Origin: a virus
Virus record (IMG/VR): IMGVR_UViG_3300036835_000164
Coordinates: 1 to 47,084 of that record
DNA: 47,084 nucleotides
Reading direction: 5' to 3' (one strand)
The notes beneath the pieces are model-generated. The model searched no databases. It was not told the DNA's origin and saw only the letters and a program-made list of their open reading frames with translations. Below, one piece after another: positions 5,567-24,921 of the stretch; positions within the stretch are counted from its first letter, which is position 1, and every line of letters starts with the position of its first letter. Made by a program: the position numbers and the translations under genes.

Positions 5567-5950
5567 TTAACGGCCGACAGCCGATGGCGGCCGGATTGCG
5601 GCGATGGCTGGGGCAACGCCCCCGGCCTTGGCCGGCTCGAAGGGCTTGAGTTTGGCGAAGTCCAAACTCAGCCAGTCACGGAGTTGGGACTCCAACGGAG
5701 TCCCCTCGGTTTCGTGTTCGTCGCCGCACTCATCGACGAAGCGAGTTGTGAAACAGAGGTTACCGTGCCGGTCCAAGCCTGAGAGGGTGAGGCGTGCAGG
5801 GCAGCTGCACTCGTTGTCAGTGCAAACGTCGTCCACCGAAGGTGGACCGTCAGGGTCCGGTTGGACGAGTTCGGCGAAGACGAGTCGCATGCATACAGTG
5901 GACTCGGGATCTAGGCGCGAGAGCGCCTCTCGAAGTTCATGGACTCTCAT
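5567..5950 (-). CDS. Hypothetical protein, 127 aa
   Basis: ATG at 5950 with GAGGAGAA upstream. Begins MRVHELREALSRLDPES, a pattern seen in small phage proteins of unknown role, then a Cys-containing stretch (VCTDNECSCPARL) and an acidic body. The 'VxELRExLSxLDPxxxV' opening is common in phage hypothetical proteins. No activity can be assigned. Confidence 0.65.
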   Translation of the reverse strand: MRVHELREALSRLDPESTVCMRLVFAELVQPDPDGPPSVDDVCTDNECSCPARLTLSGLDRHGNLCFTTRFVDECGDEHETEGTPLESQLRDWLSLDFAKLKPFEPAKAGGVAPAIAAIRPPSAVGR

Positions 5951-6024
5951 GGAAGGTTCTCCTCGTGTTAGGCTTGGGGCACTATTGCCCCAAGCTCATG
6001 CAAAAACGGTCGGCAAGAGCCACG

Positions 6025-6375
6025 CTAGTGGCTCTTGGGAACGAAGTCCAGCATGCGTCGGAATTGGTCAGAGAGGCCCTGGAATGCTGCCAAAGTGGCA
6101 GCATTCTGGAAATCTTTGTGCCCGGATGGAACGGCCTGTAGGGCCGTGGCGATGATCCAGACCTGGGAGGGGGCGAGTTCTACGACGAAGCGTCCGCCCT
6201 CGCCAGAGGGGGAGCTGCGCAGCAGCTCCATGAGGCCAGCTTGGATGGTGGAAACTTCGAGAGAGCTAAGCATTGAGTAGTCGGCATCGCCGACCACGAA
6301 GTGGATCTCTGTGCATTTTTGGAGTTGCGTCAGCAACTCACGAGCGGTAGCGAGTGATGCTTTGTGTTGTGGCAT
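6025..6375 (-). CDS. Hypothetical protein, 116 aa
   Basis: ATG at 6375 with GGGGGA upstream. Mostly helical, soluble, with no recognised motif. It is the first gene downstream of the good minus-strand promoter at 6464-6492 and probably heads the run 6375 to 4916. Confidence 0.65.
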   Translation of the reverse strand: MPQHKASLATARELLTQLQKCTEIHFVVGDADYSMLSSLEVSTIQAGLMELLRSSPSGEGGRFVVELAPSQVWIIATALQAVPSGHKDFQNAATLAAFQGLSDQFRRMLDFVPKSH

Positions 6376-6463
6376 TGTGTAGTCCCCCGATGGGGGCGGC
6401 TAGGCCGTCCCCGTGCAGTCGTAAATATAAAAGAGCGTTTCCGCGGACGCGGAAATGCCCATC

Positions 6464-6492
6464 ATGGTAACAAATGTGCTAATGTGTGTCAA
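6464..6492 (-). promoter_or_regulatory. Sigma70-like promoter for the minus-strand island
   Basis: Read on the minus strand: TTGACA (6492-6487), 17 bases, TACCAT (6469-6464). The -35 box is a perfect consensus and the spacing is optimal. Downstream the leader has a hairpin TTTCCGC-GGAC-GCGGAAA (6438-6455, plus coordinates). It lies right after the terminator hairpin of the gene before it. Confidence 0.65.
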
Positions 6493-6503
6493 GCATTAAA
6501 ATG

Positions 6504-6524
6504 CTCTGGGGCTATGCCCCAGAG
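6504..6524 (-). terminator. Terminator-like hairpin at end of the HTH/TerS-like gene
   Basis: CTCTGGGGC, loop of 3, GCCCCAGAG: nine perfect pairs. On the minus strand it is followed by CATTTTAATG. The stop codon of the frame ending at 6512 lies within the hairpin. Confidence 0.6.
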
Positions 6525-7081
6525 GGAGCCGAGGGCTCACTCTCCTCCGGTTCCTCCGGAATCGTCACCGCCGTGGCGGTGAGGAGGCGGCTTGGGGGAA
6601 TCCCCGCTTGATGGGCGAGAGCCCTCAAGCGGTCCTCGATCTGGCTGTCCGAGAGGACTCTGTAGTTGTGAGTTATGTCGATTGAGGTTTCGGTTTTGTC
6701 GCTGAAGCCACTCATCTTCGCTAGGGAGGCTAGGGCTGTCATGAACTTGGCCGGGTCTGTTTCCGCTAGGGCCGTCACGGCTTCCCGTGACGGAACGAGC
6801 AACAGCCATTCGGCGAGGAGATCTGTAAACGGCGCGCGGTCGAAACTCGTTAATCTCCGGCGAAGCTCCGTACCTGTAAAGCGCGGAGACCGTGGGTGGG
6901 GTACTGTCTTCCCGCCATTTTTGAATCGTGCGTTCGCGCTTCTGGATGGTGGTTTGTCCTGCGGCGAATTTGTTTTCATAGGAGACTCGCGAGGCGAGGA
7001 GGATCCACTGGTCGATGGAGGTGATGGAGGACATGAGCTGGCCGTCGGGTCGGTAGATGACGGGCAGGCCGAATTCGTCAA
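6512..7081 (-). CDS. C-terminal frame of split small-terminase-like protein
   Basis: Only the second half of this frame looks protein-like, from about 6850 to the stop at 6512. It contains FTDLLAEWLLLVPSREAV, then ETDPAKFMTALASLAK and VLSDSQIEDRLRALA. The 'DPxKFxxALxxL ... LSDxxIxxRLxxL' pattern is like the oligomerisation end of phage small terminase subunits. The first half (Ser/Pro rich) looks out of frame, and no start with a ribosome site was found for it. The overlapping frame 6537-7241 supplies a plausible N-terminal winged helix, so I infer one gene read through a +1 shift. Confidence 0.5.
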   Translation of the reverse strand: MTNSACPSSTDPTASSCPPSPPSTSGSSSPRESPMKTNSPQDKPPSRSANARFKNGGKTVPHPRSPRFTGTELRRRLTSFDRAPFTDLLAEWLLLVPSREAVTALAETDPAKFMTALASLAKMSGFSDKTETSIDITHNYRVLSDSQIEDRLRALAHQAGIPPSRLLTATAVTIPEEPEESEPSAPSGA

Positions 7082-7241
7082 TCCAACGGGCTAGGATGCG
7101 GCGGTCTGAGACGTGGAGGTACTCGGTGATGGCTTTGACACCTAGGAGGAGGTTCTTGGAGGGGTCGATTGCCACGGCTGGGGCGCAGCCGAGTTCGGCT
7201 CGGACGCGAGCCCACATTTCAGGCTGGGGGACGCGAGCCAT
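6537..7241 (-). CDS. HTH protein, probable N-terminal frame of small terminase
   Basis: Residues 28-80 match an excisionase/Nu1-type helix-turn-helix layout: GVKAITEYLHVSDRRILARW, then a GLPVIYRPDGQ wing and a SIDQWIL helix. Nu1-like small terminases carry such a domain. A second helical part follows (TTIQKRERTIQKWRED). From about residue 130 the frame becomes Pro/Ser/Gly/Arg rich and non-protein-like, while the +1 frame (ending 6512) becomes protein-like. A shift-prone TTT-C lies near 6844. Either a programmed or mutational frameshift, an assembly indel, or two overlapping genes would explain it. Start ATG 7241 has only a weak site (AGGG). Confidence 0.55.
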   Translation of the reverse strand: MARVPQPEMWARVRAELGCAPAVAIDPSKNLLLGVKAITEYLHVSDRRILARWIDEFGLPVIYRPDGQLMSSITSIDQWILLASRVSYENKFAAGQTTIQKRERTIQKWREDSTPPTVSALYRYGASPEINEFRPRAVYRSPRRMAVARSVTGSRDGPSGNRPGQVHDSPSLPSEDEWLQRQNRNLNRHNSQLQSPLGQPDRGPLEGSRPSSGDSPKPPPHRHGGDDSGGTGGE

Positions 7242-7404
7242 GGGGCTGACCCTGTTTTTGCGCGTGCCGCGCAGATCGCTCTGCCACGGACGGAGCTTGA
7301 TCGATCTTAGATTGAAGAGATAGCCATATCCGAAGGATATGGGGCGTCATGTTTTCACGTAGTGACGCGAGCGTGATGGGCGGGGCTGTTGGTTGAGTGG
7401 GCAT
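7219..7404 (-). CDS. Hypothetical protein, up to 61 aa
   Basis: A short open frame overlapping the start of the HTH gene by 23 bases. Starts at 7404 or, without a better ribosome site, at 7350 (MTPHILRIW). No recognised motif. Kept because the overlap layout is typical here, but it may be non-coding. Confidence 0.35.
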   Translation of the reverse strand: MPTQPTAPPITLASLRENMTPHILRIWLSLQSKIDQAPSVAERSARHAQKQGQPHGSRPPA

Positions 7405-17036: not shown

Positions 17037-17318
17037 ATGGATAGGCTTAAGACGTTGCGGAAAGACCTACTGGAAATGAGCCCGGCAGAGTTGCGCGAAC
17101 ACGTTCGCCGCATCCGTGTCGAGCGTAGAGTTTACAAGGAAAAGCCTGCCGCCAAGCGGAAGGCTAAAGTCAAGAGCAACAAGTCAGCTTCAAAGGTCGT
17201 CAACATGCTTCACACATTGACGCCGGAAGAGATCCGGCGCTTGCTTGGAGAGGTGGACGATGATGGAGGTAGTGGAAATACCAATCGACCAAATCAAGGT
17301 CGGCAAGAGAGCCCGTGA
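17037..17318 (+). CDS. Small basic conserved phage protein, 93 aa
   Basis: MDRLKTLRKDLLEMSPAELR, then a basic VRRIRVERRVYKEKPAAKRK stretch and LTPEEIRRLLGEV. This two-helix, Lys-rich design occurs upstream of replication genes in many phages; function unknown. It overlaps the methyltransferase start by 59 bases. Confidence 0.65.
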   Translation: MDRLKTLRKDLLEMSPAELREHVRRIRVERRVYKEKPAAKRKAKVKSNKSASKVVNMLHTLTPEEIRRLLGEVDDDGGSGNTNRPNQGRQESP

Positions 17319-18576
17319 CATCTTCGACGAAGTGGAGATGCGGGAGCTGGAGGAGTCTATTCAGCAAAAGGGGTTGTTCCAGCCCATAACAATTGACGTT
17401 TACAAGAATCTGGTCGCTGGGGAGCGTAGGCTTCGGGCGCACAGAAACTTGGGGCTTGCTACGATCCCGTGCGTCATTCGAGACGAAGACGTAATGGACA
17501 AGTTAAGGATTGAATTGCATGAGAATGTGAGGCGTTCCAACCTGACATGGCACGAACGGTGCCGGTTCGAACAGAGAATCTGGAACGCTGGCGTTGAAAA
17601 GCATGGCGAGATGTACTGGTCACTGGCAAAGCAGCAGGAAATGTTCGGGTCATCTAAGACCCGAATAATGATGCGGTTGCAAGTGGCTGAGGCAATGGAA
17701 ACGATTCCGGAGTTGACTAATTGCGTTGACCTCGACGAAGCGTTTAAAGAAGTTAAACGCGGCGAGGAGGTGGAACACATCCGAGCCTTGATGCACAAGA
17801 CAGCGGAAGAGGCCGCCGAGGCTCCTAAGTGGGCAGAGGACCACTATGTAATTGGGGATGCTTTTAATGGGATGCAGAAGTTCCTCAACACGCAGCCGCA
17901 CTCCCAAGGGAATGCGTTCCAGTTCGCGGAGGTTGATCCTCCTTATGGAGTTGACCTACACAGACGAAAGGGACGAAACACAGACACTAGCTCTATGGAA
18001 GAATATCTCGAGTGGGAAGATTTTCCTCAGCTGTTCGAGAAGACCGCGAAGCTCGTCTACGAATGTTTGGACCCTCATGCGTTCGCAATCTTCTGGTATG
18101 GAATGTCCCGACACTCTGAGGTGTTGGGAATTCTGCGTAGCGTGGGATGGGCAGTCCCTGATATCCCAGCGATTTGGTTTAAAGGTGAAGTTGGACAGAC
18201 CGCAAGTCCAGATACCACTCTTGGGAGTTGCTATGAACCTTTCTTCGTCGCGAGGAAAGGACAGCCTAAGATGGCAAGACCTGGGCGCGGAAATGTTTTC
18301 AACTTCCCAAGACTTCAAAGGAAGACGCACCCCACGGAGAAGCCGGTCCACCTGATGGAGGAGCTACTGGGAACGTTCTGCTTCGCGGGGTCGAAGGTGC
18401 TAGTGCCATTCCTAGGCAGTGGTGTGACGTTGAGGGCATCGTACCGGATTGGTTTGAGTGGCATGGGCTGGGACCTGAGTGACAAGCACAAGCAAGGGTT
18501 CCTCTACACGGTGCAGCAGGACTTGAGGGAAGCTGAGGCCTCCAACGAGGAGGCAGTCAATGCCAACCCCGTATGA
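17260..18576 (+). CDS. ParB-domain DNA methyltransferase, 438 aa
   Basis: Residues 1-100 are a ParB/Srx-like domain (EIPIDQIKVGKRA, QKGLFQPITI, GERRLRAHRNLG). From about residue 220 comes a DNA methyltransferase: catalytic DPPYG at about 226-230 and the SAM-binding FLGSGVTLRASY near the end, with KTHPTEKPVHLMEEL before it. DPPY before the FxGxG motif is the beta-type order, N6-adenine or N4-cytosine. The probable role is genome protection or marking; target unknown. I chose ATG 17260 (GGAGAGG upstream) over an in-frame TTG at 17245. Confidence 0.9.
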   Translation: MMEVVEIPIDQIKVGKRARDIFDEVEMRELEESIQQKGLFQPITIDVYKNLVAGERRLRAHRNLGLATIPCVIRDEDVMDKLRIELHENVRRSNLTWHERCRFEQRIWNAGVEKHGEMYWSLAKQQEMFGSSKTRIMMRLQVAEAMETIPELTNCVDLDEAFKEVKRGEEVEHIRALMHKTAEEAAEAPKWAEDHYVIGDAFNGMQKFLNTQPHSQGNAFQFAEVDPPYGVDLHRRKGRNTDTSSMEEYLEWEDFPQLFEKTAKLVYECLDPHAFAIFWYGMSRHSEVLGILRSVGWAVPDIPAIWFKGEVGQTASPDTTLGSCYEPFFVARKGQPKMARPGRGNVFNFPRLQRKTHPTEKPVHLMEELLGTFCFAGSKVLVPFLGSGVTLRASYRIGLSGMGWDLSDKHKQGFLYTVQQDLREAEASNEEAVNANPV

Positions 18577-20191
18577 AGATGGAGATCCAGGAGCACCGAT
18601 ATGTGTTTTAGGCGAGGCTCCAAGCAGCGTGGAGATGAGGATCGGAAGGCCTTTCGTTGGGCCTTCTGGCGACGTGTTCAAAGACCTGCTAAGCACAGCA
18701 GGTCTCTCACGGAGAGACTGTTACATACTGAACGTATGGCCATGGCAGGTGACGAAGGACAGGCTGGGGAACATAATCAGCCCATACAACGAGAAGCTGT
18801 GGGACAGAAACAAAGGCTTCACAGACCAAGGGGACATAGAGGCTCTTGGCGCAATCGACAAGGTGAGAAGATGCAAAGCGAATTGCGTGCTTACTTTAGG
18901 CAATCCGGCCCTCGATGCGTTGTCGTCAGGCCACAAGCCGATTGGCAAGTGGAGGGGCTCACCCTTATTCTCAAAGAGGGTGGGAAAGAAATTCATACCC
19001 ACATTCCACCCAGCCGCAACTCTGCATGGTGTGTATGTGTGGAGATATCTGATCTTGTGGGATTTAGGGAAGCTAAAGGACGAACTCAGCTCCCCGGAGC
19101 TGGTGCTGCCGGATCGCAACTTGATAACCGCGCCTTCATGGGCCGAAGTCAGCGAGTACTTCGAACTGTGTTCCCGCGCGGGGAGAGTGTGCACGGATCT
19201 GGAGGTGATAAACAATCACGTGAACTGCTTCAGCCTGGCCTACCGAGTGGACGAGTCGCTGACCGTTCCACTGGTGAATGAGCATCGAGAGCCTTACTGG
19301 AGCGAGGACCAGGAGATTGAGATATGGCAAAAGTATGCCACCTTGATGGGCGACCCTGGAGTAATGAAGATCAATCACAATATGATCGGCTTCGATGCAG
19401 TGTTCCTGTTAGACAAATGCAACATATACATGCATGGGCCTATTGGCGACTCAATGATTGCACAGTCGATCCTGTACCCAGACTTCCGGATGGGACTAGA
19501 CATGACGGCAAGCATTCACACGCGGCAGCCCTACTGGAAAGATGAGGGCAAGATATGGAAGCCAAACCACAATATTTCGTGGGACCAGTTTCAGAGATAC
19601 TGCGGATTGGACGCCGCTGCTACCTTGGAGTGCTGGTGCCAGTTAGAACAAGAGTTGTCAGAGGGGGACTACTGGCGAACCTACGACATGACCGTAAAAC
19701 TGAAAAGCCCCTTAGCCTACATGACAATCAGGGGACTTAAAATCGACCGAGAAGGTCTTGAGCTAGCAAAGGTTAGAGTACAGGAGAGGTTAAATGCCAA
19801 GAGCCAGGAACTCAAGGATGTCGCAGACTACGAGTTTAACCCCCTCAGTCCGAAGCAGTGTTCCGAATACCTATATGAGCACTGCCGAAATGAGCCATAT
19901 AGAAACTCGACTGGAGGAATTAGCACAGACGATAAAGCGCTCTCTCGTCTTGTGCGAAAAGCTGCAAGAGGATCTAGGGAAGCTAAGGTCATCCAGGAAA
20001 TTCGAGCTTTAAACAAGCTGAAGAGTACATACCTGGAGGTCGAACTTGATGGGGACGATAGACTAAGATGTTCATGGAATCCGCGTGGGACGGTCTTCGG
20101 TCGGCTATCATCTTCGCAGACGATTGCTGGCACTGGGTTGAACCTCCAAAATCTCCATCCGGAGTTCAAGAGCTTTATTGTAGCGGGGTAA
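18560..20191 (+). CDS. DNA polymerase A, N-terminal piece: UDG-like plus 3'-5' exonuclease
   Basis: Residues 1-180 resemble family 4/5 uracil-DNA glycosylases: GEAPSSVEM at 18-26, GRPFVGPSG, and TFHPAATLHG with His150. Next is a proofreading exonuclease: Exo I CTDLEV (Asp213, Glu215), Exo II INHNMIGFDAVF (Asp279), Exo III YCGLDAAAT (Tyr347, Asp351). The thumb follows and the piece reaches FGRLSSS and NLQNLHPEFKSFIVAG, then stops. That is right before motif A, which is at 21837. SPO1 polymerase has a similar glycosylase-like front. The second piece starts 1.6 kb downstream. Start behind GAGGAGG. Confidence 0.9.
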   Translation: MPTPYEDGDPGAPICVLGEAPSSVEMRIGRPFVGPSGDVFKDLLSTAGLSRRDCYILNVWPWQVTKDRLGNIISPYNEKLWDRNKGFTDQGDIEALGAIDKVRRCKANCVLTLGNPALDALSSGHKPIGKWRGSPLFSKRVGKKFIPTFHPAATLHGVYVWRYLILWDLGKLKDELSSPELVLPDRNLITAPSWAEVSEYFELCSRAGRVCTDLEVINNHVNCFSLAYRVDESLTVPLVNEHREPYWSEDQEIEIWQKYATLMGDPGVMKINHNMIGFDAVFLLDKCNIYMHGPIGDSMIAQSILYPDFRMGLDMTASIHTRQPYWKDEGKIWKPNHNISWDQFQRYCGLDAAATLECWCQLEQELSEGDYWRTYDMTVKLKSPLAYMTIRGLKIDREGLELAKVRVQERLNAKSQELKDVADYEFNPLSPKQCSEYLYEHCRNEPYRNSTGGISTDDKALSRLVRKAARGSREAKVIQEIRALNKLKSTYLEVELDGDDRLRCSWNPRGTVFGRLSSSQTIAGTGLNLQNLHPEFKSFIVAG

Positions 20192-20196
20192 AGTAC

Positions 20197-20487
20197 GTGT
20201 TTGAACTCTCGACCATTGACGTTGGCATTGGAATTATGTTCTGCTTAGCTGTAGGCTTCGTAGCAGGAGTCGTCATTAGCAAGGAGAACGGCGATGGTGG
20301 AAGGAGTAATAATGTTGTTGATCTACCTGGCGATAGTATGCCTGGTAGTCTACGTGGCTCTATGGGTCCTGGGAGAGTTGGGGATAGCCCTTCCTCCCCA
20401 GGTGGTAAAGATAATCTGGATCATCGTAGTGTTGGTGGCGCTGCTACTTCTGCTACGCCTGGTCCTGCCAAGCCTTGGGATAGGTAG
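20197..20487 (+). CDS. Small membrane protein (possible lysis regulator), up to 96 aa
   Basis: GTG start 6 bases after the polymerase stop, with GGGG before it. A single membrane helix at about residues 10-28 (GIGIMFCLAVGFVAGVVI) and then KENGDGG. The second half is Gly/Ser/Pro rich and lies over the holin-like gene in another frame, so the functional part may be only the first 35-40 residues. Position at the front of the lysis cassette suggests a holin partner or antiholin; unproven. Confidence 0.4.
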   Translation: MFELSTIDVGIGIMFCLAVGFVAGVVISKENGDGGRSNNVVDLPGDSMPGSLRGSMGPGRVGDSPSSPGGKDNLDHRSVGGAATSATPGPAKPWDR

Positions 20488-20494
20488 GTTGTAG
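20294..20494 (+). CDS. Holin-like two-helix membrane protein, 66 aa
   Basis: Two long hydrophobic helices at about residues 6-30 and 38-60, separated by a short LPPQ turn, and a short end LGIGRL. Start behind AAGGAGAA. Size, topology and position ahead of an endolysin fit a holin or pinholin, though similar two-helix membrane proteins of unknown role occur in bacteria. Confidence 0.6.
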   Translation: MVEGVIMLLIYLAIVCLVVYVALWVLGELGIALPPQVVKIIWIIVVLVALLLLLRLVLPSLGIGRL

Positions 20495-20537
20495 GTGAGA
20501 GTGAGCAAACGTCAACTAAGTGTAAAGGAGAGGCTAC

Positions 20538-20852
20538 ATGGACCGCAGAGCTCTAATTGTCGGGATGTTGGGATTCGCCCTGAGTGCTTCCGCTGGAATG
20601 GCTGCTGAGCCGAAGCCTAAGCCGAAGCCTGACAAGACCGACAAAGGCGACAAGCCTGGTAAGAAGGACAAAGGCGACAACGGAGGCGGAAAGCACGGAG
20701 ACCACGACGGTCATGGTGGTCACGGAGGCCACGGCGGCTGGGGTGGCGGTCGCCACCATGGAGGCTGGGGCGGTGGCAGACGCCACGGCGGCTGGCGCGA
20801 GCCGGACTGCTACTATTCCCGGCGCCGTGAACGCTGGGTCTGCAATTGGTAA
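20538..20852 (+). CDS. Predicted exported His/Gly-rich protein, 104 aa
   Basis: Signal peptide at residues 1-22 (MDRRALIVGMLGFALSASAG), followed by a Lys/Pro/Asp/Gly linker and a His-Gly-Gly-rich repeat region (HGGHGGHGGWGGG type), which could bind metal. It ends with a two-Cys segment EPDCYYSRRRERWVCNW, a pattern seen in small secreted proteins of alphaproteobacteria. AAGGAGAGG precedes the ATG. It lies inside the lysis cassette, so a periplasmic helper of lysis is possible (inference). One alternative is a host-derived envelope protein. Confidence 0.65.
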   Translation: MDRRALIVGMLGFALSASAGMAAEPKPKPKPDKTDKGDKPGKKDKGDNGGGKHGDHDGHGGHGGHGGWGGGRHHGGWGGGRRHGGWREPDCYYSRRRERWVCNW

Positions 20853-20947
20853 GCTAACATGAAGTGCGAGCTGTGCAAGTCTGAAGTGGAGCGGGCTTGC
20901 ACAGCCTTCGTGCAAGTCGCTTACTGTGACACATGGAGGAGCAAATC

Positions 20948-21832
20948 ATGCAAGTCACTCCGAGAGTCGTTGATCTCTCTCATTATCAATACGACGAACT
21001 GGGAGGGCGCTTTGATTGGGACGCTATACGGCGCTTCGGAATTTGGGGTGTCATCTACAAGGCGACGGAAGGCTCCAGCTACGTCGACTACACGTACCAA
21101 GACGCGCGCCGCCAAGTCGAAGACGCTGGCCTCCTCTTCGGGGCCTACCACTTCTTCCGTCCTGGAGATGCTACAGCGCAAGCAGACCACTTTCTGGAGA
21201 ATGCCGCGCCAGACGGAGGAACCCTGTTGGTGCTGGATCACGAAGACGACGGATGCTCCATCGGAGACGTTAAGGAGTTCATGAAGCGCGTCGAGGACAA
21301 GACCGGCCAGAGGCCGGCGCTGTACTCTGGCAACGTCATCAAGGAGCAACTGGGGAGTAACCGGGATGAGTATCTCGCCTCTTGTAGGCTGTGGTTGTGT
21401 CAGTATGGAAGCTCTCCTTCATGGCCACCGAACTGGGACAGCATGTGGCTCTGGCAGTACACAGATGGGGCCGCAGGGCCCAGTCCGCACGAAGTACCGG
21501 GCATCGGGAACTGTGACATCAACAGTTATGGCTTGTCTCAGGCGGACCTCGAAAGAAGCTGGGCGCCTGGAGCCGGGCCAGACGTTGACGTTGAGACGGG
21601 AATGACTGCAGACGAAATGCTCTGGACGCAGGCCAGTTTGAATGTGGTCTCGAATGCTGGCCTGGAGCCCGATGGCCTGTACGGCCCGGCAACTGCCGGT
21701 GCATTGAAAGAATTTCAGCGCAGGCACGGGATTGCCCCTACGGGGCAGCCTACGAAGGGCACAGTGCAAGCCATACTGGAGGAGCTTGATGCCTGGAATG
21801 ACGACCGCAGAATCATCAATGTTGATTCTTGA
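20948..21832 (+). CDS. Endolysin: GH25 muramidase with peptidoglycan-binding domain, 294 aa
   Basis: GH25 lysozyme fold: VVDLSHYQ (Asp9) at the start, FGAYHFFRPG near 64-73, and the catalytic LLVLDHEDD (Asp97, Glu99). GH25 enzymes cut the MurNAc-GlcNAc bond. From about residue 218 there is a PG_binding_1 domain (LEPDGLYGPATAGALKEFQ). No signal peptide, so release needs the holin-like protein upstream. Start at 20948 chosen for GGAGGAGC. Its end overlaps the second polymerase piece by 44 bases. Confidence 0.9.
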   Translation: MQVTPRVVDLSHYQYDELGGRFDWDAIRRFGIWGVIYKATEGSSYVDYTYQDARRQVEDAGLLFGAYHFFRPGDATAQADHFLENAAPDGGTLLVLDHEDDGCSIGDVKEFMKRVEDKTGQRPALYSGNVIKEQLGSNRDEYLASCRLWLCQYGSSPSWPPNWDSMWLWQYTDGAAGPSPHEVPGIGNCDINSYGLSQADLERSWAPGAGPDVDVETGMTADEMLWTQASLNVVSNAGLEPDGLYGPATAGALKEFQRRHGIAPTGQPTKGTVQAILEELDAWNDDRRIINVDS

Positions 21833-22847
21833 GTTCGATCTTGCCGGTGCAGAGTGGGTGGTCGTGGCTTACCTGAGCCGCGACCCTAACATGCTGGAAG
21901 TTGTCCGCTCAGGAAAGTCTCCGCACATAGTCACTGGGGCGCTGATCTCCGGCGCCCCGGAGGAGTTCGTTCTCGAGGAACACAAAGTCGTTGGCTCGCA
22001 CACAGATGCGACTACAATAGAGATGCTGCGGAAAAGCCTGCATGTTCCGCCGCAGATCTTTCTGCCTAGGGTGATGTCCATCAGGCAGGCTGGTAAGAAA
22101 AGTAATCATGGTCTCAACTACAACATGAAGTACCGTAGGTTTGCGCTTGAGAATGAAATGCTGGAAGCAGACGCTCAGCCTATTGTTGAGCGTTACGTCA
22201 ACGTAGCCTACCCAGGAATCAAGAACTACTGGGAGTCCATCAGGAAGGAACTCAAGGACAACAAGCGGACGATGGTCAACTGCTTTGGGCGGCGGGTTAA
22301 GCTCAGAGGAGAATGGGGCGAGGAGTTGTTCAATCAGGCCTACAGCTTCAAGCCGCAAAGCACTGTAGTCGACATTGTAAACGCTGCCATGGTGCTTGCC
22401 TACGAAGATGAGTCCCCTGACTTTGAAAACTTTTTCCTTGGGGCACAAGTACATGACTCCCTTCATGTGCAAGCCATCGTCCCGCAGACGCGGGACGAAT
22501 GGCTAAGCCTTGCCCGCATGGTTTTAGTTCTCAAAGAGAACTACATGCGGCCGACACTATCATACAACGGGGTGGAGTTCAAGCTCGGCTGCGATGCCAA
22601 GCTCGGCATCAACTGGGGCAACATGGAGAGCTTCAAAACTAGTGACGACATCGAGGATGTCGTCACGCGAGTCCGCGCTGCCTACGACGTCTGTCTTGCA
22701 AGTAAGAGCGCGCACCCTGCGGGCTCGGAGGAACAGGTGGAGGAGGCGGTGGAATCGTTGTCGGAAGAGTCTGAGGCTCATTTCCTGCAGCGGCTAAGAT
22801 CTGAGCACCAAGATTGGGGAGGGCAGGGGGACCTGGGGGCGGCTTAA
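21789..22847 (+). CDS. DNA polymerase A, C-terminal piece: palm and fingers, 352 aa
   Basis: Carries the three polymerase motifs. Motif A is LILEFDLAGAEWVVVAYLS (Asp17). Motif B is RQAGKKSNHGLNYNM near 99-113, with His where most family members have Phe. Motif C is QVHDSL (His222-Asp223), with Ser for the usual Glu. It begins where the piece ending at 20191 stops, so the two make one complete polymerase if they assemble or are spliced. It has its own ribosome site GGAGGAG 4 bases before ATG 21789. Conserved sequence ends near 22635; the acidic tail beyond overlaps the convergent late gene. Confidence 0.9.
   Translation: MPGMTTAESSMLILEFDLAGAEWVVVAYLSRDPNMLEVVRSGKSPHIVTGALISGAPEEFVLEEHKVVGSHTDATTIEMLRKSLHVPPQIFLPRVMSIRQAGKKSNHGLNYNMKYRRFALENEMLEADAQPIVERYVNVAYPGIKNYWESIRKELKDNKRTMVNCFGRRVKLRGEWGEELFNQAYSFKPQSTVVDIVNAAMVLAYEDESPDFENFFLGAQVHDSLHVQAIVPQTRDEWLSLARMVLVLKENYMRPTLSYNGVEFKLGCDAKLGINWGNMESFKTSDDIEDVVTRVRAAYDVCLASKSAHPAGSEEQVEEAVESLSEESEAHFLQRLRSEHQDWGGQGDLGAA
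22642..22666. terminator. Perfect 11-bp hairpin at the convergent gene overlap
   Basis: GTGACGACATC-GAG-GATGTCGTCAC. It lies within the polymerase tail, and the minus-strand stop codon (22663-22665) is inside it. It could slow transcription from both sides. Confidence 0.5.
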
Positions 22848-24921
22848 ATCCCCCGCCGCCCTTGCCACCACCCAGGCCGAAGAGGCCCCCGCCTCCGCCC
22901 CCTCCGCCGAAGAGACCGGCGAGGCCGCCACCGCCTCCTTCGGAGCCACCGCCGCCAACGTCGGCAGCCTCCACTGGAGGCGCAGCCGCTGAGGTGTCGC
23001 CTCCTCCAGAGGCAATGTCGCCACCAGTAGTGGCGAAGTCCATGGCCTGCTCGCCTTCAGGACCTGTCATGCCAGGAGGCACAGTTGTAATGATTGAGCC
23101 CGGCAACTTGAACTGATTCGGCGCGGAAGCAGTTTCGGTTACTGGTAACTGTGCCTCCTGAGCAGCTGCGGAAAGTTGTGGCTGTGCAAAGCGGCCAGGG
23201 TCGCTGAAGTCGGAGCTTGTGGCTAGTTGTTGCAAGTCCTGAGCAGTTGCGTCGGGAATGTCTGGACGGATGGGCATGGCTGAGCGGGCGAACTGGCCAA
23301 CGCGACCAGATTGGTCAGCCACCGGAGTTCCCTCTGGTGGCGTTACGACGCCACCACGGGTCGTGGAAGGAGCGCCCGCAACTTGCGGGCGTTCGCCACG
23401 CATGAAGTTCAGAAGGATGCCTTGGTCCGTGCTGAACTGCTTGGCATAGTCATTGGCATTCTTGATGTTGTCGAACTCACCCAGGTGCTGGCCAGTCTGT
23501 TCGTATTGCTTGTATGCCTCCTGAGGCGTCATGAGCTTGCCATCATCGGAGATTGTTGGCAGGACCACTTGGGTGTAGTTGGGAGTGGTCATAGTGACGG
23601 AGCGGACAGTCATGTCCTGACCCGTCTTCGGGTCACGGACAATGGGGCGGTCGAAGGGGTTTATGTTTCCCTTGACGAGCATGCCAGGGATGTTCTCGCC
23701 CTTGCGGTAGCCTTCGGCACCGCCGAAGTCCTCGAAGCCTTGCATACGCTCCACAGGGGCCGTTTCGGCCCCCTTGCCTTGCATGCCAGCGATGGCAGTG
23801 ACTCCCCGTTCTGAAACGGGGCGGGTTTGCTCGATGAATGCCTTGGCACTGTCGGCCATCTTCGTTGGGGTCGTGGCTGTGGCAGGTCGCCAACCCTCCG
23901 CACGGAGGGTGGCGGCTATGCCGCCGCCTTCGCCACGGGCTCGACGGCCTGGCTGAAACTCACCATGGCCACCTATGTTCTTGGGATCAATGTTGAGACT
24001 GAGACCTAAGTCCGAGGCCAGTCCCATTCCGGCTTCTCGAGCTGCTTTAGTTGGAAGCTCCCCTTTGTCACTGTTTACATTGCTGAAGGCAATTCCGATA
24101 GTGTCAGAATTGTTTCCCTTCATATGGTTCGTAATGCGGTCGAGTGGAGCTGCCTGGGTAATGTTGCCGTTAGGATCTATCACGAAGTGATAGCCTGGAT
24201 CGAAGCCCCGAGCAGGGTCGACTTTGCGACCATAGACAACGAGGGCACCTGCCCCTGCCACGTCGTCATGCATGACAATGCGCTTGATGTCTCCCATGTC
24301 GCGAGTACGCGCCATGTAAGGCGCGTTCACGTCGATGCCGTTCTGAATGTTCAAGCCTCGCTGGGACTTGAAGACTTCGTGGTCGGAGCCAGTCGGCTTG
24401 TTTCCAGACGTGTCACGTCTGGAGCGACCGCCGCCGAGAAGTTCAGCATCTCCGGCTTGGCCAGAGATGTCGGGCATTCCTGGCAATGTTGGCGGGGACA
24501 ACATCGGAGCTTGGCCAGTCAGTTCTGGCCGAGCGAAGCGCCCAGAACGCTCCTCAGGAAATGATGGTTGGATATTTTGTCCTGGGCGATTCAGGCCCTC
24601 GCCGCGTGCAAAGGCAGCTCGCAACTTTATCTCGTCGATAAGGGCAGGCTTCTGCTGGTCTGAGATGGTTCCAAGGTTGTTGTAAAGTTGACGAGTGGAG
24701 AGGTCTTTGAAAGGCCGTTCGCGGACTTCAACGTTGGTTGACTCTCGGCCGCTGGGCTCATACTTGAAGCCTGTTGCTTCGCGCATGCGAAGCAGTTCGC
24801 CGCCTGTTTGGTAGGGGCTTCCAGGGTCGAATGCGTGGCCAGCACGCATTCTCTGCATGAGGTCTCGGACTTCTTGAGCCCTGGCCTCGTTCGAGAAGCG
24901 GTCAACACGTTTCAGTGGCAT
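22663..24921 (-). CDS. Internal virion/ejection protein with amidase-like domain, 752 aa
   Basis: Residues 205-335 resemble an N-acetylmuramoyl-L-alanine amidase (Amidase_2): RIVMHDDVAG (His218), GYHFVIDPNG (His245), DTIGIAFSNV, GGHGEFQPG (His319). The usual acidic or Cys ligand after the last His is not obvious, so activity is uncertain. The middle contains PTQEAYKQYEQ-like, DUF-type segments seen in phage lysozyme-linked proteins. The end is Gly-rich and Pro-rich. In podoviruses such proteins enter the cell envelope at infection. The last 185 bases overlap the polymerase tail on the other strand. Confidence 0.75.
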   Translation of the reverse strand: MPLKRVDRFSNEARAQEVRDLMQRMRAGHAFDPGSPYQTGGELLRMREATGFKYEPSGRESTNVEVRERPFKDLSTRQLYNNLGTISDQQKPALIDEIKLRAAFARGEGLNRPGQNIQPSFPEERSGRFARPELTGQAPMLSPPTLPGMPDISGQAGDAELLGGGRSRRDTSGNKPTGSDHEVFKSQRGLNIQNGIDVNAPYMARTRDMGDIKRIVMHDDVAGAGALVVYGRKVDPARGFDPGYHFVIDPNGNITQAAPLDRITNHMKGNNSDTIGIAFSNVNSDKGELPTKAAREAGMGLASDLGLSLNIDPKNIGGHGEFQPGRRARGEGGGIAATLRAEGWRPATATTPTKMADSAKAFIEQTRPVSERGVTAIAGMQGKGAETAPVERMQGFEDFGGAEGYRKGENIPGMLVKGNINPFDRPIVRDPKTGQDMTVRSVTMTTPNYTQVVLPTISDDGKLMTPQEAYKQYEQTGQHLGEFDNIKNANDYAKQFSTDQGILLNFMRGERPQVAGAPSTTRGGVVTPPEGTPVADQSGRVGQFARSAMPIRPDIPDATAQDLQQLATSSDFSDPGRFAQPQLSAAAQEAQLPVTETASAPNQFKLPGSIITTVPPGMTGPEGEQAMDFATTGGDIASGGGDTSAAAPPVEAADVGGGGSEGGGGGLAGLFGGGGGGGGLFGLGGGKGGGGFKPPPGPPALPNLGAQILAAAGNEPQTLPTTIPPPPPPVPPSPQGARSYLQDRRRRQRGLA

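Follow-up and report, generated by a model that had tools for sequence, protein, structure and literature searches.

A polymerase gene in two pieces

The window, which is the whole 47,084-base stretch of IMG/VR virus record IMGVR_UViG_3300036835_000164, includes a replication operon in which a family A DNA polymerase is encoded by two open reading frames (ORFs), with an endolysin gene in the gap between them. All support for the reading of this locus comes from sequence and structure models. The features of the polymerase region are as follows.

18560..20191, + strand: N-terminal polymerase subunit, comprising a family 4/5-like uracil-DNA glycosylase (UDG), a 3'-5' exonuclease, the thumb and the first palm strands (Pfam and PHROG matches, AlphaFold model, structural match)
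20192..21788, no strand assigned: inter-polymerase gap of 1597 nt, the cargo slot (sequence)
21778..21782, + strand: ribosome-binding site GGAGG, 6 nt ahead of the ATG of the C-subunit gene (sequence)
21789..22847, + strand: C-terminal polymerase subunit, comprising the motif A strand, the fingers with the O-helix, and motif C (Pfam and PHROG matches, model, structural match)

The coordinates and the reading of both polymerase pieces were checked and found to be correct. As a sequence-only reading of this DNA had proposed, the polymerase is divided into two ORFs ahead of motif A, and Pfam, PHROG and structural comparison agree on this point. The N subunit, of 543 residues, ends in NLQNLHPEFKSFIVAG directly before its stop codon. 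Its Pfam matches are to UDG, to DNA_pol_A_exo1 and to positions 4-126 of the DNA_pol_A profile (the first third), and the C piece matches positions 206-380, the last half of the same profile. The profile phrog_17 spans both halves in order, at 480-985 and then at 1004-1278, leaving about 20 profile positions between them. Going by an offset taken from the 1taq row, the C profile begins at Taq residue 605, just ahead of the motif A strand.

In the structure models, which were built from alignments of relatives and have a mean predicted local distance difference test score (pLDDT) of 92.1 for N and 89.7 for C, residues 183-543 of N align to Klenow residues 324-696 (VIA-align, 1kln, Z 20.6) and residues 8-281 of C align to Klenow residues 696-928 (VIA-align, 1kfs, Z 19.5). 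Since the two pieces thus reach Klenow residue 696 from either side, the models tile Klenow end to end with almost nothing lost at the seam, which bears out the earlier estimate that almost no residues are missing there. Residues 1-10 of the C piece are modelled at low confidence, and the fold starts at M11 (position 21819). At the other end of the protein, residues 1-178 of N match structurally to family 4 and UdgX-type uracil-DNA glycosylases.

The palm, fingers and thumb of a family A polymerase, together with motif A, the O-helix and the catalytic residues of motif C, are all present across the two chains. The thumb and the exonuclease are located in the N chain, and both metal-binding motifs and the fingers in the C chain; thus, each half is without something essential. 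The ORFs are separated by a stop codon and a new start in 37 of 37 members of the clade described below, so the product is not a single polypeptide. As a single chain is not a strict property of the family, for which exceptions are known, the enzyme is called here a two-chain variant of the family A UDG-exo-Pol type (phrog_17).

Origin of the cut

When viral contigs were scanned with only the C piece, six relatives were obtained, five of which carried the N piece, and in all five the polymerase was encoded by two ORFs. Further relatives were added by profile scans, and loci were classified by hidden Markov models. Loci that share the cut of the window (A-split loci) have an N ORF that terminates just past the FIVxD/G strand, and a second ORF that opens at [M/V/L]LIEFDL. 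The same junction was found in 37 distinct environmental phage polymerases of the UDG-PolA type, each on a distinct contig, and chance and misassembly, the latter named as a danger in the sequence-only reading, are therefore excluded. The search of phages for the same junction that it had proposed led to a single clade. In the main tree of 104 polymerase-domain sequences, which includes 42 unsplit rows, the 37 UDG-type A-split rows (leaving aside the Vibrio phage L005, which lies on a long branch) formed one clade with a support of 99, and the unsplit L057, L086 and L156 were placed just outside it. The trees are quick searches with branch support given by the Shimodaira-Hasegawa-like approximate likelihood ratio test (SH-aLRT). 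The A-split clade was also recovered in the first tree, built on whole N+C sequences (30 rows, support 98), and in a thinned set (97). On these trees, the cut arose once, in the ancestor of the A-split clade.

Gap lengths in this clade lie between -11 and about 3,100 nt, and the contents are unrelated. In basal members the pieces adjoin, overlapping by 11 nt in L050 and being separated by 54 nt in L145. An arrangement that the sequence-only reading had set against itself, with the two pieces adjoining and no lysis genes present, therefore does occur, and because it occurs at the base of the clade, the order in which the split came first and the lysin later is supported by these sequences; the split itself stands. 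Shine-Dalgarno (SD)-like sequences lie ahead of many of the C starts.

As the coding region is interrupted, the polymerase might be decaying, the split being a disabling lesion and the phage being replicated by a host polymerase or another one. This is highly improbable, given that the catalytic residues are kept in both halves across the clade, namely the metal-binding Asp, the R, K and Y of the O-helix, the HD of motif C, the DxE of Exo I and the YxxxD of Exo III. The ratio of nonsynonymous to synonymous polymorphism (pN/pS) is low for both polymerase pieces (0.15-0.30), that of the lysin being 0.13, and the split persists through deep divergence, to as little as 38% identity in the C piece.

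Joining of the N and C pieces after translation, in the manner of a split intein, deserves almost no credence. Intein-like insertions do exist in the same polymerase family (L089, L162, L163, L167 and L170), but these sit in the O-helix and not ahead of motif A. In the window, the stop codon of N comes right past FIVAG, an intein block is absent, and just ten low-confidence residues precede the motif A strand in the C piece. The insertions in the relatives are ~270-330 residues long (L089 5530-8898; L162 and L163 3849-5738; L167 381-3944; L170 3210-5684), and the insertion point reads RQAGKK|C in L162, L163 and L167, RQCGKK|C in L170 and GKK|C in L089.

Contents of the gap and the surrounding operon

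The genes of the gap, and the features on either side of the polymerase genes, are the following.

20197..20487, + strand: small ORF with a GTG start and possibly one transmembrane (TM) segment, mostly overlapped by the 66-residue ORF; uncertain, from reading of the sequence only
20294..20494, + strand: 66-residue protein with two hydrophobic stretches (two-TM), at most a putative holin; homologues in relatives
20538..20852, + strand: 104-residue Gly/His-rich protein with a signal-like N terminus; ORF with AAAGGAGAG upstream
20933..21832, + strand: GH25 muramidase endolysin with PG_binding_1 (Pfam; PHROG lysis families)
17245..18576, + strand: ParB_N and N6_N4 methyltransferase, the upstream neighbour in the replication operon; overlaps the start of the N-subunit gene and is a neighbour of the polymerase also in relatives
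22642..22666, - strand: strong hairpin with a T-run, which lies within the C-subunit gene where the convergent late operon has its 3' end (consensus scan only)

A lysis cassette had been read in this gap from the sequence, and the endolysin part of it holds. The gene product matches Glyco_hydro_25 (E 2e-32) and PG_binding_1 (E 3e-10) in Pfam, its start is perhaps at 20948, where GGAGG lies upstream, and the 44 nt at the 3' end of its gene lie within the C-subunit gene. Of the supposed cassette, the endolysin alone is established, the holin-like, other membrane and exported proteins having no family in Pfam, PHROG or NCBIfam; there was no family match for the 20197..20487 ORF or for the Gly/His-rich ORF, and no Pfam, PHROG or NCBIfam match for the 66-residue ORF, which was rejected as a known holin for this reason. 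The 66-residue protein has a homologue in the L008 gap, and others precede the polymerase in L017, L024 and L049; homologues are also present away from lysins. No report of a lysis cassette inside a polymerase gene was found in the literature.

The replication operon on the + strand has the order PD-(D/E)XK nuclease, AAA protein, DUF669-like protein, ParB-methyltransferase and then the polymerase, and all gap genes share its reading direction. A consensus scan, which is a weak test, gave no match to a promoter-like or terminator-like site on the + strand in the gap. The convergent - strand gene at 22663-24921 of the window, encoding a 752-residue late protein with an Amidase_2 domain, shares 185 nt with the end of the C-subunit gene. 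No DNA homology to isolated phages was found over positions 18000-23000.

The gap contents differ among the relatives with the junction fixed, in line with the earlier suggestion that the genes in the gap are cargo. Endolysins lie in the gap in 13 of the 37 tree rows, 12 of them among the 16 rows of the subclade of the window, and belong to several PHROG families. GH25 lysins are found in the window, L009, L010, L016 and L019 (and, in part, L018), a phrog_465 M15 lysin in L020, phrog_17001 lysins in L021, L107, L124 and L165 (and L169), phrog_32486-type proteins that are probable lysins in L025 and L026 (with a weak peptidoglycan-binding match in L026), and an M15-like protein in L149. Several of these have an M15 domain and so represent distinct PHROG families but not fully unrelated folds; GH25 is unrelated to M15. 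Cargo with no part in lysis includes MazG-like proteins, ThyX and a methyltransferase (L162).

Some further gap contents were observed. A 530-residue subtilase (Peptidase_S8, E 6e-43) fills the gap of L013 at 5778-7370, and an ORF in the gap of L064 (9901-10341) matches PHROG 4786, annotated as cysteine dioxygenase. In one subclade, a conserved protein of ~70 residues stands alone or nearly alone in the gaps of L033, L034, L036, L037, L040, L042, L044 and L045, its gene often showing ATGA-type stop/start overlaps; this protein could be a third polymerase subunit. The gap protein of L031 and L112 resembles the C-terminal part of HNH endonucleases, and these remnants in the sequence are a hint that mobile endonucleases may have visited the slot. 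GIY-YIG-like and LAGLIDADG-like homing endonuclease ORFs were seen by eye near the split polymerase in L009 (4138-4629) and L075 (5788-6246), that of L009 lying directly upstream of it.

The sequence-only reading had also considered that the cargo might lie in an old intron. Under this explanation the gap would be a self-splicing intron, or the still-splicing remains of one, with the lysis genes as intron ORFs and a contiguous polymerase as the product. Introns with homing endonucleases do occur in phage family A polymerases, an HNH-like ORF parts the polymerase pieces in the Goe26 region, ~25 residues upstream of the present site, and an intron was considered by the authors of the paper on phage MEP401 (PMC10580990), discussed below. 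However, an Rfam scan for introns gave nothing relevant in the window or in eight relatives, the gap of the window is densely coding and its second polymerase ORF has a ribosome-binding site, and the gaps of L009 and L010 are coding throughout. In L009 the next ORF starts a few bases past the N stop, and from there to the C start the ORFs overlap one another, and in L010 the four ORFs of the gap region abut or overlap, so that no room is left for a ribozyme. The gap contents are also non-homologous among relatives, the distances in L050 and L145 are below the size of any intron, and the start of the C ORF coincides precisely with the fold boundary and is preceded in many members by an SD sequence. 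An intron is therefore very unlikely.

The recurrence of endolysins at this slot raises the question of whether selection has placed them there, with translation of the two polymerase halves coupled to that of the lysin between them, and the timing of lysis thereby made to follow replication. In favour of such a coupling device are the number of gap lysins and the variety of their families, their position in the replication operon and, in the window, the overlap of the lysin gene with the start of the C subunit. Given that the gap genes are read with the operon and that the scan found no + strand promoter-like or terminator-like site among them, it is possible from the sequence that lysis timing is tied to polymerase transcription. 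Many split members, however, have no lysin in the gap, other cargo (MazG-like proteins, ThyX, the protease, the methyltransferase) is unrelated to lysis, and the placement of lysins may be mere tolerance to insertion. Moreover, lysins usually wait for a holin, and operon position need not fix the time of lysis. A device for coupling replication to lysis that is kept by selection is thus a rather unlikely explanation.

Other split polymerases and the two-chain model

Replication enzymes made as two polypeptides, with an insertion between the gene halves, are known in phages. Aeromonas phage 25 (with 44RR) has a split DNA polymerase, gp43A/gp43B, the halves of which are reported to co-purify and polymerise, and NrdA of phage Aeh1 is a 'genes-in-pieces' enzyme (PMC2988022). 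The polymerase of the window resembles these in being two ORFs where the relatives surrounding its clade have one unsplit gene. However, gp43A/gp43B belongs to family B, Aeh1 NrdA is a ribonucleotide reductase, and a homing endonuclease or an untranslated spacer lies between the halves, whereas here the enzyme is of family A, the cut is beside motif A, an endolysin or other non-mobile genes lie between the pieces and the arrangement is clade-wide. No homing endonuclease was found in the gap of the window by Pfam, PHROG and family searches.

Family A polymerases with the same cut are encoded by OM43 phage MEP401, in which a small ORF lies between two polymerase ORFs (PMC10580990; also MEP402; OP830906), and by its relatives ct2os315, ctOsX528 and Alcaligenes phage QDWS535. 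The MEP401 seam was read as FLSRYGE | MILNADAK, which is the same residue as the cut in the window. QDWS535 has a 1-nt overlap at this cut and no cargo, the gap of ct2os315 spans 3.6 kb and includes a cytosine methyltransferase, and in MW202796 several genes occupy 3.6 kb between the pieces. This lineage differs in lacking a UDG domain, and in the gaps seen it has no annotated lysin. Constraining the UDG-type and MEP401-type splits to a common origin costs 89 log-likelihood units (p-AU, from the approximately unbiased test, 4e-5), and such an origin was rejected; by this test of the sequences, the MEP401-type cut is independent of that in the clade of the window.

Breaks at other sites were also encountered. 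The UDG-type PolA of Vibrio phage VS-ABTNL-3 (PVS_29/PVS_27) is likewise divided near motif A into two ORFs that enclose a further gene, but its break is upstream, past NLQNLPKG, and it lies outside the clade as a separate split. In Bacillus Herelleviridae (Moonbeam, Goe26) a family A gene is interrupted shortly ahead of motif A, but the break is ~25 residues upstream and endonuclease-type ORFs lie between the pieces. In a further UDG-type clade (17 rows, support 89), the break falls within the exonuclease domain, just ahead of Exo III. The loci with this exonuclease-site split are L135, L139, L140, L146-L148, L150-L155, L160, L161, L170 and L096, with N ending in QEYWKDxVKFxxIKxxS before the stop, and their gaps hold small ORFs, an AAA-like gene with a dNTP (deoxynucleoside triphosphate) pyrophosphohydrolase (L140) or an HNH endonuclease (L151). 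Caulobacter phage Kuura (L004) was rejected as a case of the split ahead of motif A, as it is cut at the exonuclease domain like this clade. Enterococcus phage GiddyUp (L100, 2460-4810), annotated with two ORFs, was not counted since its N tail is out of frame, and its annotation is probably due to a frameshift or a sequencing error.

Given the constraint on both pieces, the kept catalytic residues and the precedent of gp43A/gp43B, the locus most probably encodes a working family A DNA polymerase that is permanently two-chain, with the gap as a cargo slot. The break, which arose once on the trees above, lies in the surface turn that links FIVxD, a palm strand, to the motif A strand. One mRNA of the replication operon would yield both chains, the C chain being translated from its own ribosome-binding site, which overlaps the end of the lysin gene. 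As neither chain alone has all the parts, a single active site would be formed by non-covalent association of the N and C chains. The intervening space would then have become a slot for cargo genes that interrupt nothing. Relatives with no lysin in the gap carry cell-wall enzymes in the opposite-strand late operon, where an M15-like ORF in the unsplit L057 and a transglycosylase-like ORF in L064, L075 and L022 were read by eye. This suggests a transfer of the lysin to the replication operon in the subclade of the window, its GH25 endolysin probably coming from the late operon. The lysin is cytoplasmic and probably waits for a holin.

Some points weigh against this reading of the locus. A recognisable SD sequence is absent at some C starts in the clade, and no holin for release of the lysin was identified in the window, the full gene set of which was not annotated and may include other lysis genes. 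Trans-splicing or an RNA element unknown to Rfam may restore a contiguous product, and a second DNA polymerase may be encoded elsewhere.

Automated annotation will tend to call such polymerase genes broken or intron-containing. The gap is a natural record of gene swapping, including several endolysin types, into a fixed slot of a replication operon, and its arrangement makes coupling of lysis to replication directly testable. If such coupling is real, lysin synthesis and polymerase assembly would be linked stoichiometrically or temporally, and several endolysin types would have been recruited to the slot. Natural two-chain family A polymerases have been little studied, and here a whole clade keeps a cut beside motif A. 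Since the whole clade has kept this cut, and the unrelated MEP401-type lineage made the same one, the palm turn before motif A looks like a genuinely permissive break point, which would be useful for the design of split or switchable polymerases and for understanding the origin of multi-subunit phage enzymes.

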